Assembly: GCA_947652735.1 (NCBI GenBank)
Contig: CANTEG010000004.1
Span: 141,601 to 205,600 of the forward strand
Source: an uncultured Lachnospiraceae bacterium
Lineage (GTDB): Bacteria > Bacillota > Clostridia > Lachnospirales > Lachnospiraceae
Reading direction: 5' to 3'
DNA length: 64,000 nucleotides
Shown here: positions 30,699-56,409 of the stretch, in pieces
Numbering within the stretch: the first letter of the stretch is position 1
Layout: each line of letters starts with the position of its first letter
Notes under the pieces: generated by a model
What the model was told of the DNA's origin: nothing
Seen by the model: only the letters and a program-made list of their open reading frames with translations
Databases searched by the model: none
Translations under genes and position numbers: made by a program

Positions 30699-33600
30699 CT
30701 AAGCCTTCTCCTTTACGAACGGAATCAGTTTAAAACAAAATTCAAAGCGTTCATCATCAAATCTATACGCTTCCAATACTGTCGGTCCACAGCTATTTGA
30801 GCCAATTCCGTTTTGGGCGTAGTCAAGACACAGCACTACGCTATCGGATGGTTCCAATTCAAAGTTATGAGCCGCCCGTTCCAGTTCTTCCTGCGTATAC
30901 CATGATGCATTGAAAGAAAATGGCTTCGGCGACACTGCCGTTAACCCAAACCTTTCATTTCTAAGCTCCACATAATCACAATCATAATGACTTCCGTTTT
31001 CCTGCGGGCGGATATAATCCTCGTGAAGCTCTTCTATATCCGTGTGGTATATGCCATGGGCGGATGCCCTGTGCTTATCACAGTAGCTTTCATATGGTCC
31101 CATGCCATAGTAGCATACATTTATGAGCTCCCTGTTCAGGAATAACCGCACCCCAAATCTTGGCAGCACAGGAAATTCATTGTTTTTTTCTATTTTCATA
31201 TCTGACGTGATTCCACCTGCTGCATCAATGCTCCATATGATTTCCACGGATACAATTTTTTGAACCGTTGCAGCCACCACTGATGCCGTACTCCTCAGTT
31301 CAATCTTGTCCTTTTCATGGCAAACCACGGTATCATATGCTCTTATATATGCTTCGTTATAATGTGCTTTCATCCACTCGGATTTTATAACCATGTCATT
31401 ATCTGTAGGTGCTCTCCATATGTTTATCTCCATAGGGTGATTAAGGTAATCTATACCTGCAAAATTAATCTGCTTCAGCATTGCATTTTTCTTATCATAC
31501 GTGTAAGTGAATGTTTCACCCTTTACTATAATCAGACAATCTGTCTCCCGTACTTCAAGCCCTGTGCCATCTTCTGCCGATTCCAACAATTTTACGGCTG
31601 TCTGGTTTCTCGCATCTTCATTTTCAATGAAAAGCTCATCAAAGCCCAGTATATGCCCGATTGGAATAAGAGCCATGTTTTTCTTCAGATAATAGGTTAC
31701 CTTCAAATAAACCTTACCTGCCGTTGGAATGTTGATATCTAAAGCTATTTCTGCATCACTGTGCGGTGCCGCAAAGCATTCTGTTATCTTACCTGATTCC
31801 ACATATGCCCCGTCACAGGTCACTTCATACCCAATTTCCGCATAATCGGCAAGGTTGTCAAAATCCATATAATTATGAATTTTTAGTTTTCTGCCTGCCT
31901 TGTCATATGATAGTACCCTTGCAGGTCTGTATACATTTTTATATTCAAGCAGTCCCGTATGAGGCGCTTTGTCAGGATAAACAAGACCATCCATACAGAA
32001 ATTTCCATCGTGGATAAGTTCCCCATGGTCGCCGCCATAAAGATATTTTGTTTTTCCGTCCTCTGTGATTCCTGATGCAATGGCATGGTCACACCACTCC
32101 CAGACAAAACCTCCGCACATCAAATCATTTTTCTGTATAAGTTGAAAATAGTCCTCGAAATCACCTGGCCCGTTTCCCATGCTGTGGCAGTACTCAACCA
32201 GTAAAAATGGTTTGCTGGCATCTTTATCCAGATACTCTTTTATTTCTTCAAATGACGGGTACATTCTGCTGTACAAATCCAAATTTTCGTAATTGTATGT
32301 CACATCATAGTTGCGGTATCTTGCACTCTCATACTGTGTAAGACGTGACTTATCAAATGCCTTTGTCCATTCCAGTGCCTTTTCGAAGTTGCACCCGTAA
32401 GCACTTTCATTTCCCATGGACCACATAACAATACACGGTCTGTTTTTATCCCGCTCAACCATCAGCTTGACTCTGTCCAAAATCGGTGTTTCCCACTTTG
32501 GGTTATCCGCGATATACTCATTCCAGCGTTTGAAGCGGTTGTATTCCGTGTCATCCTGATAATAAAGAATAGATGGTCCATGCGCTTCCACATCTGCCTC
32601 GTTGATTACCATAAATCCAAATCTGTCACATAGCTGATAAAAGTATGGTGCATTCGGATAATGACTGGAACGGATGGCATTAAAGTTATGCCGTTTCATC
32701 ATTGTTAAATCAACCATAACTTGTTCAAGGCTGACTGCACAGCCTGTTCTTCCGTCCGAATCGTGGCGGTTTACACCCCTGAATTTTATGTTCTGACCGT
32801 TAAAATAAATAACATTTCCGATAATCTCTATTGTCCGAAAGCCCACATAATCTATAATCACCTCATGTTCCGTCTCAAGCACCAATGTATACAGATAGGG
32901 GTGTTCCGTATTCCATAGCTTAAGCTCAGGCACCGTAAGCAATACTTGTTCTGCTTTAGAGCACGGTGCATGTGCAACCACATTGCCCTCCCTGTCTTCC
33001 AAAGTTATGTTAACTTTTGTCATTTGGGAAAAGGTAAGCGTAAGCTTAAGTTCTGCTTTTCCATCTGCAATATTTGTCGTCACCCTGTAATCTCTGATTG
33101 CTTCCTTCGGTCTTTTCAAAATATACACATCCCGAAAGATACCACTCATCCGAAACTTATCCTGGTCTTCCAGATAAGAACCATCACACCATTTCAGTAC
33201 CAATATTGCAATAGTATTCGTTCCCTCCTTAATCACAGATGTTACATCAAATTCACTTGTAGCATGGGACACCTGACTGTACCCCACATACTTGCCGTTC
33301 AGCCATACATAAAAACAACTGTCCACACCTTCAAAATTCAGATATGCCATTGGTGCATTCCCATCGCTCTCATATTGAAAATCATACACATATGCCCCGC
33401 AGGGAATGTCCTGTGGGACATACGGCGGATCAAACGGAAACGGATACCGAAAATTTGTATACTGGTGGGAATCATAGCCTGACATCTGCCACGTGCCTGG
33501 CACTTCAATATCATCACACTGTGACGTGTCAAAGCCTGACGCATAAAATTCTTCCGTCACATCATAAATGCTCTCATAATATTTAAACTTCCATGTCCCG

Positions 33601-33743
33601 TTCAAAAGCTGTATACGGTCTGACAGCTCACGATGCATAACCAAATCATTCATTCTTCTTGAAGCAGGGATATAATATGCCCTTGCAGGCATTGTATTAT
33701 CATGCAGCACATTTAAATCTTCATAATATTTTGGCACAAGCAT
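30699..33743 (-). CDS. lacZ: Beta-galactosidase (GH2, LacZ type)
   Basis: Product of 1014 residues from ATG 33743 (GGAGGAGACTGCC). The full LacZ layout is present: jelly-roll sugar-binding domain (about 30-205), Ig-like domain, TIM barrel with the acid/base Glu in MWSMGNES and the nucleophile Glu in LLVEYCHSMGNGPG, second Ig-like domain, and Bgal small chain at the C-terminus (VCYYGMGPYESYCDKH). It has no signal peptide and acts in the cytoplasm on lactose or galactosides. No permease or LacI gene is adjacent. A 211-nt palindromic element sits directly upstream. Confidence 0.96.
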   Translation of the reverse strand: MLVPKYYEDLNVLHDNTMPARAYYIPASRRMNDLVMHRELSDRIQLLNGTWKFKYYESIYDVTEEFYASGFDTSQCDDIEVPGTWQMSGYDSHQYTNFRYPFPFDPPYVPQDIPCGAYVYDFQYESDGNAPMAYLNFEGVDSCFYVWLNGKYVGYSQVSHATSEFDVTSVIKEGTNTIAILVLKWCDGSYLEDQDKFRMSGIFRDVYILKRPKEAIRDYRVTTNIADGKAELKLTLTFSQMTKVNITLEDREGNVVAHAPCSKAEQVLLTVPELKLWNTEHPYLYTLVLETEHEVIIDYVGFRTIEIIGNVIYFNGQNIKFRGVNRHDSDGRTGCAVSLEQVMVDLTMMKRHNFNAIRSSHYPNAPYFYQLCDRFGFMVINEADVEAHGPSILYYQDDTEYNRFKRWNEYIADNPKWETPILDRVKLMVERDKNRPCIVMWSMGNESAYGCNFEKALEWTKAFDKSRLTQYESARYRNYDVTYNYENLDLYSRMYPSFEEIKEYLDKDASKPFLLVEYCHSMGNGPGDFEDYFQLIQKNDLMCGGFVWEWCDHAIASGITEDGKTKYLYGGDHGELIHDGNFCMDGLVYPDKAPHTGLLEYKNVYRPARVLSYDKAGRKLKIHNYMDFDNLADYAEIGYEVTCDGAYVESGKITECFAAPHSDAEIALDINIPTAGKVYLKVTYYLKKNMALIPIGHILGFDELFIENEDARNQTAVKLLESAEDGTGLEVRETDCLIIVKGETFTYTYDKKNAMLKQINFAGIDYLNHPMEINIWRAPTDNDMVIKSEWMKAHYNEAYIRAYDTVVCHEKDKIELRSTASVVAATVQKIVSVEIIWSIDAAGGITSDMKIEKNNEFPVLPRFGVRLFLNRELINVCYYGMGPYESYCDKHRASAHGIYHTDIEELHEDYIRPQENGSHYDCDYVELRNERFGLTAVSPKPFSFNASWYTQEELERAAHNFELEPSDSVVLCLDYAQNGIGSNSCGPTVLEAYRFDDERFEFCFKLIPFVKEKA

Positions 33744-33777
33744 ATGGCAGTCTCCTCCATAATATAATAGTTTTAAA

Positions 33778-33988
33778 ATAGGCAATTGCAAAATGTTGTT
33801 TTTTCGAACGTCCGTTGTACAATATAAACAATATCACCGCAAGGCACGCTTTCGCTGCTTGTCGCTCGCAACGGTGCTAAGCTCGAAAATACCTTGCTAA
33901 GCACCGGCGGCTCCAAAGCACCTTGCTTGCGATATTGTTTATATCGTACAACTACTTTTCAATAATATAACATTTCGCAATTATCTAT
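33778..33988. repeat. 211-nt near-palindromic intergenic element, copy A
   Basis: The whole segment folds as one long hairpin with inner branches. The outer arms ATAGGCAATTGC/GCAATTATCTAT are followed inwards by GTTGTACAATATAAACAATA paired with TATTGTTTATATCGTACAAC, then GCAAGG/CCTTGC, then CGGTGCT/AGCACCG. Copy B at 56051-56262 has almost the same length and fold, with paired substitutions in the stems. Both lie about 30 nt before the start codon of a minus-strand gene. It could be a MITE-like mobile repeat or a structured leader RNA. I see no coding potential in it. Confidence 0.8.
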
Positions 33989-34114
33989 ATAGCTTTAAAT
34001 CCAATCCTGCAAAAGCATTGACGCGATTGCACTCTTTTATTCTTGCCGTACTGAATCTTCCATACTTATGATACCTTCTTATGTCAGATTTGTCTATTTA
34101 ATATTATGCTGCCA

Positions 34115-54072: not shown

Positions 54073-55359
54073 TCAAACCAAAAGAGAAATTTTTACACAG
54101 GCACCCTTTTCTGTGTTTGACAGCTCCATATCGCCGCCATGCTTTCTACACAAAAGCCTGCTGATGGAAAGCCCGATACCCAAATGTCCATCCTTATCGG
54201 CAATCAGCATAGTTTTCTTTTTTGCATTCAGAATTTCCGGGGTGAATCCGCCTCCATCATCTGTCACGCTGACAAAAAGCATTGTATCTGGCAAAGAAAA
54301 ATCAAGCTGTATTTCTTTTTTGGCATACCGTATTGCATTGTTTACCAGATTTTCCAAGATTCGGTAAAGCACAGTAGTATCAACCTGTATTTCCTTATCT
54401 GGCAAATGATTAGCCGCATGCAGCGTTATTCCTTTTTTCTCAGCTAAAAGTTCCAAATCCTCTGAAATATCCTCTGCAAACTTAGCCGCTGTCACAGTCT
54501 TTCGGGCAAGCTGCATTTCTTCAAGCTGGTTTAACAGCCTCACTGATTCTGTGTACTGCCCCAGCCGCTCTGCCGATTCACCAAGATTGTGAACGATATG
54601 CCTTGTTTTTTCCTTACTCATTTCCCCGTGTTCAAGTCCCGCTTCCAGATACTCCGTATAGCCTTTTATAATGGCAATGGGATTACGCAGGTCATGGGCA
54701 ACCGAAGCCTGCAGCAGTCTTCGTTCTTCCAGCATATTCCACATTTCTTTATTGTTTTCGCAAAGTTCCATCCTCATATCCTCAAAGGAGTGGCACAAAT
54801 TCCCCATTTCATCCTTACAATCGTAAGTAATTTCAAAATCAAGATTTTGTTTTGCAATCTGCTTTGTCGCATCTGCCAGCAAATGAAGAGGCTGCCTCAG
54901 CTTTCGCCTGTAAAAATAGATGCTGCACAAAAAAATTGCTGCAAATGCCAAAATTGTAGGTGCAGCAAACATTATGATTCCACACAGCTTATAAGCGAGC
55001 TTTCTTTTTGGTGTAAGGGAGTCTGCGCCTGTTTCTATTTTTTGTATGGAGTACTTTGTTTCTTTTATATTATTTAAAATCTCACCATCATTATCGTACA
55101 TTTCCAGAGACGGCACGGCTGATAAATCTCCGCCAATTTCCAAAAGGTAAGAACTCACTGTAACATTTCCATTTGCAAAGGTTTCTTCCATTGTAAGATA
55201 TACCTGATTGGGATTCGGTAACAGCCAATGCCGAAATGCAACACATCCTCCGATAATCAACGCCGACAAAACAACCACTATCCCCACGGAAAACAGGACG
55301 GTCAGCATAAGAAAACGCTTTAACGGCAAATCGCTCCATTTCTTTTTTAACGCTTCCAT
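54073..55359 (-). CDS. Sensor histidine kinase
   Basis: The 428-residue product has two membrane helices (about 17-40 and 120-145) around an outside domain of about 80 residues. A HAMP domain, the H-box ASVAHDLRNPIAIIKGY, N-box LVNNAIRYAKK and G-box DDGGGF, GIGLSISRLL follow. It overlaps the response-regulator gene by 13 nt. The linked transporter genes suggest it senses a cell-envelope-active compound. Confidence 0.92.
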   Translation of the reverse strand: MEALKKKWSDLPLKRFLMLTVLFSVGIVVVLSALIIGGCVAFRHWLLPNPNQVYLTMEETFANGNVTVSSYLLEIGGDLSAVPSLEMYDNDGEILNNIKETKYSIQKIETGADSLTPKRKLAYKLCGIIMFAAPTILAFAAIFLCSIYFYRRKLRQPLHLLADATKQIAKQNLDFEITYDCKDEMGNLCHSFEDMRMELCENNKEMWNMLEERRLLQASVAHDLRNPIAIIKGYTEYLEAGLEHGEMSKEKTRHIVHNLGESAERLGQYTESVRLLNQLEEMQLARKTVTAAKFAEDISEDLELLAEKKGITLHAANHLPDKEIQVDTTVLYRILENLVNNAIRYAKKEIQLDFSLPDTMLFVSVTDDGGGFTPEILNAKKKTMLIADKDGHLGIGLSISRLLCRKHGGDMELSNTEKGACVKISLLV

Positions 55360-56024
55360 TTGTATCCTACCCCCCAGACCGTTTCAATATATTCCTCGCC
55401 TGTTACTGCATGAAGCTTGGCACGTATCTTCCTTACATGCTCCTTAATCACGTCTGCACTACCCTCCGCATCATAGCCCCATATCCGTTCATAAATGCGT
55501 TCCCGGTCAAATACCTGACCCGCGTTTGTTAAAAGAAACTCAATTAATTCAAACTCTTTTTTTGAAACCTCAATTTCCATATCCCTGAAAAATATACGGT
55601 GCTCTGTAAGATTTACAAGCAATTCTCCCGATGTTAGTACCGATGTGGAACCGCTTCGGACACGTTCATCACGCCTTAAATGGGCAGACACTCTTGCCGC
55701 AAGCTCCTTTAAGCTGAATGGCTTTGTTATATAATCATCCCCACCATACTGTAATCCATTTATTTTATCCTGCTCGGTAATTCTTGCAGTCAAAAACAGT
55801 ATGGGGCAGGAAACATGGTTGCGTATCGTCTTACAAAGCTCCAGTCCATCCATATTGGGCATATTGATATCAAGTATAATCAAATCAGGCTTTTTCGGAA
55901 GCAGCGTCAGGGCCTGCTTTGCACTGTTTGCAGTGTAAGTCTCATATCCCTCATCCCCTAAATAATCCGAAAGCAGCTCGGTCATCATCATTTCGTCGTC
56001 CACAATTAAAATTTTATGCTTCAT
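55347..56024 (-). CDS. OmpR-family response regulator
   Basis: Product of 225 residues from ATG 56024 (AAGGAGG). The receiver domain has LIVDDEM, phosphoacceptor in LIILDINMPNMDG, LTARITEQ and TKPFSLKEL. The winged helix ends with VIKEHVRKIRAKL and TVWGVGYKWKR. It is the first gene of a regulator-kinase-lipoprotein-ATPase-permease operon. Palindromic element copy B lies about 27 nt upstream of the start. Confidence 0.94.
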   Translation of the reverse strand: MKHKILIVDDEMMMTELLSDYLGDEGYETYTANSAKQALTLLPKKPDLIILDINMPNMDGLELCKTIRNHVSCPILFLTARITEQDKINGLQYGGDDYITKPFSLKELAARVSAHLRRDERVRSGSTSVLTSGELLVNLTEHRIFFRDMEIEVSKKEFELIEFLLTNAGQVFDRERIYERIWGYDAEGSADVIKEHVRKIRAKLHAVTGEEYIETVWGVGYKWKR

Positions 56025-56050
56025 CCAAACACCTCCTTGAAAGAGAAAAA

Positions 56051-56262
56051 TAGCCATGTGCAAAAGTCTGTTTTTATAAATGTCCGTTGTACAATATAGA
56101 CAAATTACCACAAGACACGCTTTCGCTATGCGTCGCACGTAGCGGTACGTAAGATGCTAAAAAACAGCATCTAAGTACCGACGGCTCCACAATGTCTTGT
56201 TTGTAATATTGTCTATATTGCACAACTACTTTTTTAGAAATAGCAAGTTTTGTTCATGGCTA
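56051..56262. repeat. 212-nt near-palindromic intergenic element, copy B
   Basis: Outer arms TAGCCATG/CATGGCTA are followed inwards by GTTGTACAATATAGACAA paired with ATTGTCTATATTGCACAAC, then CAAGAC/GTCTTG, then CGGTAC/GTACCG with an inner AGATGCT/AGCATCT hairpin. It aligns end to end with copy A at 33778-33988. Substitutions between copies occur in pairs that keep the stems. Its flanks are unrelated to those of copy A. Confidence 0.8.
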
Positions 56263-56409
56263 GAGAATAACCTTTAAAAATCAAAAAAGTGTCAAGATTT
56301 GTAATCAACTTATTCTACACCCTATTTTTTTCAAACCATTCAACTGCAAAATCGACCAACTTTTTTATTCTCTCCCATTGAAAAATTTATCTCCTTTTCC
56401 AGATTCCCT

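Follow-up and report, generated by a model that had tools for sequence, protein, structure and literature searches.

The window analysed here, a 64,000-nucleotide stretch of an uncultured Lachnospiraceae genome, contains two palindromic elements, A and B, whose likeness poses a question: are they mobile DNA, a structured RNA, or the one carrying the other? An initial annotation, made from the letters alone, had offered a MITE or REP-like element and an undescribed structured RNA as readings, and had taken paired differences between the stems of the two copies as a sign that the fold is retained. Two alike palindromes do occupy the coordinates below, and the short motifs and paired stem differences quoted for them are present in the sequence.

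Elements A and B in the window

The features of the two loci are as follows.

33778 to 33988, minus strand: element A, 211 bp, with inverted ends at 33779–33794 and 33972–33987; it runs from TAG to CTA
33767 to 33777, unstranded: target-site duplication of A, copy 1 (ATAGTTTTAAA), 10 of 11 positions identical to copy 2
33989 to 33999, unstranded: target-site duplication of A, copy 2 (ATAGCTTTAAA)
33752 to 33758, minus strand: Shine-Dalgarno (SD) sequence GGAGGAG of the gene behind A, about 22 nt from the element end
30699 to 33743, minus strand: target gene of A, a beta-galactosidase-type GH2 protein of 1014 aa, its start codon picked by the SD
33831 to 33928, minus strand: predicted structured core of A, scoring 111.8 bits with model R1, which was built in part from A itself
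56051 to 56262, minus strand: element B, 212 bp, from TAG at 56051 to CTA at 56262, with TAGCCATG-type ends
56042 to 56050, unstranded: target-site duplication of B, copy 1 (AGAGAAAAA), 8 of 9 positions identical to copy 2
56262 to 56270, unstranded: target-site duplication of B, copy 2 (AGAGAATAA), overlapping the element end by its last A
56032 to 56038, minus strand: SD sequence AAGGAGG of the gene behind B, 13 nt from the element end
55347 to 56024, minus strand: target gene of B, a response regulator (domain matches to Response_reg and Trans_reg_C)
56102 to 56202, minus strand: predicted structured core of B, scoring 102.6 bits with model R1, which was built in part from B itself

The elements have identical orientation, and each precedes a minus-strand gene; the two genes are unrelated. 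The core strand of A is the minus strand, that is, the sense of its downstream gene. When the plus strand alone was folded, A and B gave z-scores of -8.4 and -9.8, respectively, and none of 200 shuffles folded as stably. The pairing of A with B is no coincidence: in their own genome (2.77 Mb in 40 contigs), A with 10 bases on each side has 58 DNA matches (partial, overlapping and reverse matches included), and R1, a covariance model of the core, has 31 matches at E ≤ 0.01, none weaker than 0.0072, with A and B among them. No tRNA was found in the window, nor any match to the Rfam 15 families at gathering score; at E ≤ 5, four loci gave six Rfam hits, all far under their gathering scores.

Element ends, target duplications and empty sites

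The ends are of two 16-bp types, TAGRYAATTGCGAAAY (A type, also written TAGRYAATTGCGAAAC) and TAGNNATGAGCAAAAC (B type). With up to two mismatches allowed, the TAGRYAATTGCGAAAY pattern occurs at 77 places in the genome of the window, vs. 15 for a reversed control pattern. We compiled 95 elements, deduplicated by their flanks, in which both ends match at 13 or more of the 16 positions; the loci behind this set were fetched by core, end or transposase matches and never by the SD. Ends were found at a fixed similarity threshold, and some old copies have eroded ends. The set comprises 91 elements of 36–290 bp and four insertion sequences (IS) of 1345–1558 bp, and falls into four size classes: 36–100 bp (16 elements), 101–190 bp (14, mostly the 151-bp class of one genome, G015), 191–300 bp (61, the class of A and B, the largest being 290 bp) and the IS.

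A target-duplication score of at least 7.5 was reached by 41 of the 95 elements; in 20 re-pairings of the flanks, 0.55 elements reached it on average and never more than 2. The perfect duplications among the 41 are 8–12 bp long. Empty sites, to which the initial annotation had looked for signs of target duplication, were recovered twice: L068 is matched by L135, and L156 by L139, both empty sites being in the genome of the window. At each of them, the letters that the occupied site has twice are present once, with some substitutions. Four other flagged alignments were unusable (L006/L021, overlapping loci; L016/L040, weak; L108/L018 and L024, occupied site). A and B are MITEs, non-autonomous transposable elements; the first of the two original readings is borne out by the inverted ends, the target duplications, the empty sites and an IS with B-type ends.

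A candidate autonomous partner

The TAGCCATG end type of B is also that of the autonomous IS. Eight loci with PF01609 matches were found in five genomes, and in two of them B-type ends surround the transposase. One (L176), on a contig of the Roseburia inulinivorans DSM 16841 genome reached via L072, is 1558 bp long with an open frame of 442 aa; the other (L174) is 1345 bp long and degraded. The transposase belongs to DDE_Tnp_1 (Pfam, 56.4 bits vs. a cut-off of 23). Its best NCBIfam profile is IS1182, at 103.7 bits, which is below the curated cut-off of 270; no PDB sequence matched it at E ≤ 0.01. Close homologues (E ≤ 1e-40) occur in three of 299 genomes of the family, and these led to the loci L181, L182 and the one-ended L183. 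Among the 31 genomes with core or A matches, four hold the IS (G041, G015, G349 and, as a remnant, G344); G015 and G349 look like one assembly because their coordinates are identical.

In the genome of the window, PF01609 gave no hits, and 20 stretches around lone ends, for which end pairs and open reading frames were listed, showed no clear IS. A transposase with A-type ends was looked for, and none was found. The R1 core was found in none of the five IS loci; the transposase therefore does not need it.

Two other candidates were rejected. A 2.1-kb end pair in G041 (L149) has genes of the DNA polymerase III delta type and for ribosomal S20 between its ends, and no transposase. An ISLre2/TnGBS identity was set aside as well: the PF06782 (UPF0236) loci L169–L172 lack such an end pair around the transposase. 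The genome of the window has UPF0236/ISLre2-type transposases of its own (L170, G000:C5:170779-171966; L171, G000:C39:2234-3007), and these are not flanked by the ends studied here.

The core: predicted fold and covariation

By comparative prediction, the core folds into a conserved three-way junction that includes a GNRA minihairpin. An outer stem, P1, leads to a junction with the minihairpin GCGAAAGC, followed by P2 (RCTT/AAGY), a tandem GA opposite GA, P3 and a variable apical hairpin, P4. A search of a GTDB contig collection for a 23-nt core motif yielded 71 stretches. Sixty-nine distinct cores were collected, with 18 motif hits that had no left half set aside; those of 88–116 nt were reduced to 45, of which 37 entered the first model alignment. 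Eight were left out by hand, five for odd apical parts (L016, L072, L076, L101, L109) and three for a broken outer stem (L110, L125 and one copy of L114).

The claim that the fold is retained had rested on two copies. Their stem changes are real; as evidence they are weak on their own because A and B come from two subfamilies. Larger sets carry the claim further. In the 37 cores, 10 of 21 pairs change on both sides, vs. 4.7 ± 1.0 in shuffles; one of five measures, the number of further pair types, went in the opposite direction (16 vs. 17.7 in shuffles). An inclusive set undid the hand selection: 89 loci were searched with R1 and all 92 matches (88 distinct) were counted, giving 14 of 21 pairs changed on both sides (6.8 ± 1.3 in shuffles) and 93.5% of cells paired (87.5%). 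A wider set of 36 copies, 20 from a family-wide search and 16 from earlier loci picked by hand, gave 16 of 21 pairs across genera, vs. 6.9 ± 1.5. In the wider and inclusive sets, both of which are alignments fitted to the model, all five measures exceeded every shuffle. The statistical comparison that could have spoken against a retained fold therefore came out in its favour.

The tetraloop of the wider set varies among GAAA, GAGA, GCAA and GCGA, all of the GNRA type, with AAAA in L199; the 71-stretch set, fetched with GAAA in the pattern, is uninformative on this point. The proposal of a structured RNA is likewise strengthened: the core covaries beyond composition and has no Rfam match, which makes it a putative RNA on comparative grounds. 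No description of the core was found among the best matches listed in the open-licence PMC literature; a list such as that in PMC8040213, of which a portion was available, could contain it unnamed.

Folded RNA or palindromic DNA?

Palindromes can stay complementary for reasons that have nothing to do with RNA. Template switching can copy one palindrome arm onto the other, and a DNA hairpin might be needed for movement; either would maintain the pairing with no RNA function. G-T and A-C mismatches bear on this explanation in both directions. In the arms of 48 core-bearing elements, the outer half has no G-T excess (67 G-T vs. 91 A-C), as the explanation would have it, whereas the inner half has one (66:26); over whole arms the counts are 133:117, which is not significant (p 0.34). 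The core also favours G-T. In alignment A1 the counts are 24:0 over 19 of the 21 pairs (17 of them from one column pair) and 24:1 over all 21; they are 31:10 in alignment A2 and 61:22 in alignment A3 (88 distinct rows). Arms of differing sequence stay palindromic across copies, and the IS, with a transposase that does not need the core, does without it, both of which sit well with palindrome maintenance. Against it, the covarying core positions include some that lie off a simple palindrome, in the three-way junction and at bulges, and the tetraloop stays within GNRA, with its one exception.

Orientation also argues against palindrome maintenance as the whole account. In the core-bearing 191–300 class, 33 copies are sense and 12 antisense (p 0.0025; 16 not assigned), although this count, like those of G-T and A-C, treats cells or copies as independent, which they are not. 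Among copies of this class with an SD at 13–25 nt, the ratio is 31:11; in the 101–190 class it is 7:5. We regard palindrome maintenance with no RNA function as a real, if less than even, possibility, and an RNA role of the core as likely, judging from these comparisons.

Masking of the SD was considered as the source of the sense bias and rejected. The probability that the SD is unpaired was 0.54 as found, 0.54 with the element flipped and 0.51 with the site empty for 38 sense copies; for 16 antisense copies the values were 0.56, 0.52 and 0.52. Neither the element nor its orientation changes SD accessibility, and since the SD is equally free in all states, folding gives no reason for the bias.

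Placement at Shine-Dalgarno sites

Both A and B lie just upstream of an SD. This placement was first noticed on core-bearing copies and then counted across all 95 elements, taking as genes open reading frames of at least 50 codons with starts called by a simple script. An SD lies 13–25 nt from one end in 81 elements; uniform placement in the same gaps, computed by setting each element at every position of its gap, would yield 18.7 ± 3.6. For gaps of at least 100 nt, the count is 33 of 41 vs. 3.8 expected. The same wide motif list, which takes in AAGGCG and AAGGGG sites (L082, L087, L106), served for the observed and null counts.

A count free of gene calls agrees. A GGAG-type motif lies 11–26 nt from an end in 73 of the 95 elements, on both sides in one element only, and control windows moved outwards by 30–120 nt (seven offsets) contain it in 5–16 of the 95. 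Within 56 nt of the ends there are 91 GGAG motifs, of which 76 start at 14–22 nt; a single one starts in the first 14 nt, at 7, and the number drops sharply past 22 nt. The distance from end to SD has a standard deviation of 2.2 nt vs. 3.1 nt for the distance to the start codon (81 elements; bootstrap difference 0.47–1.30). Because the distance to the SD is the tighter of the two, we take the SD, not the start codon, as the anchor. The spacing is common to both orientations and all four size classes, and the 151-bp copies of G015 (L152–L160, L163–L165), which have near-perfect ends and a core reduced to P1 and the GNRA minihairpin, likewise sit at SDs in both orientations.

The SD test was missed by 14 elements (L008, L016, L025, L070, L092, L099, L108, L109, L121, L122, L134, L140, L176, L181), two of them among the four IS. 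In five of these (L070, L099, L108, L176, L181), a GGAG-type motif is in range with no long open reading frame behind it; no such motif was seen near the ends of L008, L025, L109, L134 and L140. In all five IS loci (L174, L176, L181, L182, L183), the TAGCC end faces GGAG at 14–15 nt, as counted by eye, which makes the IS oriented. In L176 and L181, no start with an open reading frame of 50 codons was found behind the GGAG, and it is for this reason that they were scored as misses. An IS at GGAG with no 50-codon reading frame argues for recognition of DNA letters.

Could insertion occur anywhere, with persistence only just upstream of an SD, where promoter and ribosome-binding site are left unbroken? 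Such survivorship would account for the intact SDs, and the short 5'-leaders imply that a permitted window exists. However, the concentration at 13–25 nt holds even in the gaps of at least 100 nt, the sharp fall-off of GGAG past 22 nt is not something that avoidance of damage predicts, and the spacing recurs in both orientations, in four size classes and in IS beside GGAGG with no 50-codon reading frame. We therefore judge survivorship alone to be unlikely.

Targeting of promoters, with the SD spacing as a secondary effect, has a precedent: TnGBS, ISLre2 and ISKra4 sit at a fixed 15–17 bp upstream of the sigma-A -35 box (PMC3942029, available portion). Yet the start codon follows the SD-side end by about 30 nt (mean 29.95, s.d. 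3.1; 81 elements), which leaves no room for a promoter, and the far side has no -10 or -35 motif at a fixed distance; its sole bump, a TATAAT-like motif at -12, falls in the AT-rich duplication. The transposase, moreover, is DDE_Tnp_1 with IS1182 as its best profile, not UPF0236, and we consider promoter targeting very improbable. That the elements are simply cis-regulatory RNAs (riboswitches or leaders) and not mobile is scarcely credible: a conserved fold immediately before the SD, mostly sense, is what such an RNA would show, but the target duplications and empty sites refute it as the sole explanation, and the 31 matches of the core within a single genome, the antisense copies, the lack of an Rfam match and the unrelated genes behind A and B all go against it.

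A model for insertion beside the SD

We thus return to mobile elements that land at the SD. With good confidence, we consider A and B to be MITEs that an IS1182/IS5-like DDE transposase mobilised in trans and inserted beside the SD, with a core that is most likely a folded leader RNA. Transposition directed to the polypurine tract of the SD, which keeps the SD intact and places a structured leader, is the most likely account. The transposase would recognise the 16-bp ends, those of A perhaps through a sister enzyme, and the junctions suggest that it cuts with an 8–12-bp stagger a few bases 5' of the purine-rich SD tract, presumably reading the SD itself. After insertion, one element end would lie 14–22 nt from GGAG, with the ribosome-binding site intact. 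The near-symmetric MITEs could insert in both orientations; the IS, with its unequal ends, would insert oriented. An element placed before the SD would join the mRNA leader, where a core read in the sense direction would most likely serve as a folded leader RNA.

SD-side landing would turn the element into the leader of the gene that it hits. To our knowledge, the signals that targeted bacterial transposons use are att sites, terminators, palindromes or promoters; landing at a ribosome-binding site would be a new way to spare the host. If the transposase does read AGGAGG, it could serve as a tool for tagging translation starts. A broader reading, which we hold tentatively as possible rather than probable, is that this IS/MITE lineage has a transposase that reads the SD as its landing mark, making ribosome-binding sites its safe harbours, and that a family-wide, undescribed folded RNA has been put into the leaders of dozens of genes per genome, rewiring their expression.

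Comparison with known systems

Among the best matches listed in the open-licence PMC literature on MITEs, IS targets and structured RNAs, no SD-targeting mobile element was found. Bacterial MITEs such as MITEAba12 and the pneumococcal RUP and BOX resemble A and B in that they are short, share their ends with an IS, have target duplications and can enter transcripts (PMC6382973, PMC3049150, both available in part); A and B differ from them in having a covarying multi-branched core, which is found also without these ends. According to the available portions of the same two sources, the targets of MITEAba12 are AT-rich with no trend in sequence. The IS1182/IS5 group, represented by IS1272, is the nearest profile of the transposase, yet its score is far under the cut-off, and whereas the IS and MITEs studied here have 8–12-bp duplications, IS1272 reportedly takes the place of inverted repeats (PMC5678879, accessible part). 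TnGBS, ISLre2 and ISKra4 are a precedent for fixed-distance, oriented targeting of an expression signal (PMC3942029, as above), but there the signal is the -35 box and the transposases are Mutator-like, whereas the elements studied here are at the SD and have a transposase of another family. Correia, ERIC and BIME/REP are also hairpin repeats that alter transcripts, a likeness drawn from their description; the part of PMC3049150 that was available makes this point and has no mention of an SD spacing for them.

Distribution and variants of the core

That further copies would turn up in related genomes proved correct: the covariance-model search with R1 matched 81 of 200 genomes of the family of the window, or 80 of 199 genera. 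Twelve of 196 genomes in an order-level sample were matched, all 12 in the same family. Since the core occurs in 80 of 199 sampled genera with no Rfam match, many leaders in gut commensals may carry an unrecognised fold. The titles of motif-bearing stretches name Lachnospiraceae, Roseburia, Lachnospira, Eubacterium, Eubacteriales and Clostridium, and for some MAGs Bacteroides or Bacteroidales. MAGs with the latter titles (L063, L070 and other NALB contigs) are rich in these elements. The coordinates of the JAMPFU assembly (G349) equal those of G015, a genome of the genus of the window; some MAG titles therefore look wrong.

Copies of the core that lack these ends (35 loci) frequently lie close behind the 3' end of an opposite-strand gene and show no consistent placement at SDs, which implies at least one further route of spread or retention of the core. 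Such cores (L195, L196, L200, L201, L207, L213, L222–L224 and others) often lie about 50 nt or less from an opposite-strand stop codon.

Several cores have unusual insertions. Extra hairpins, GTCCTAAGG...CCTTAGGAC or GTCCTGAGG...CCTGAGGAC, occur in L008, L058, L070, L097, L119 and L124, and in L012, L018 and L019, either in the apical hairpin or at the GGA where P2 and P3 join. L075, which lacks the extra hairpin, and L097, which has it, look like one site in two assemblies. Long apical inserts in L103, L116, L092 and L093 look like a nested half copy of the core. Finally, the cores of L126, L073, L074, L060 and L064 sit atop stems of unrelated sequence, of which that of L126 resembles a bidirectional terminator.
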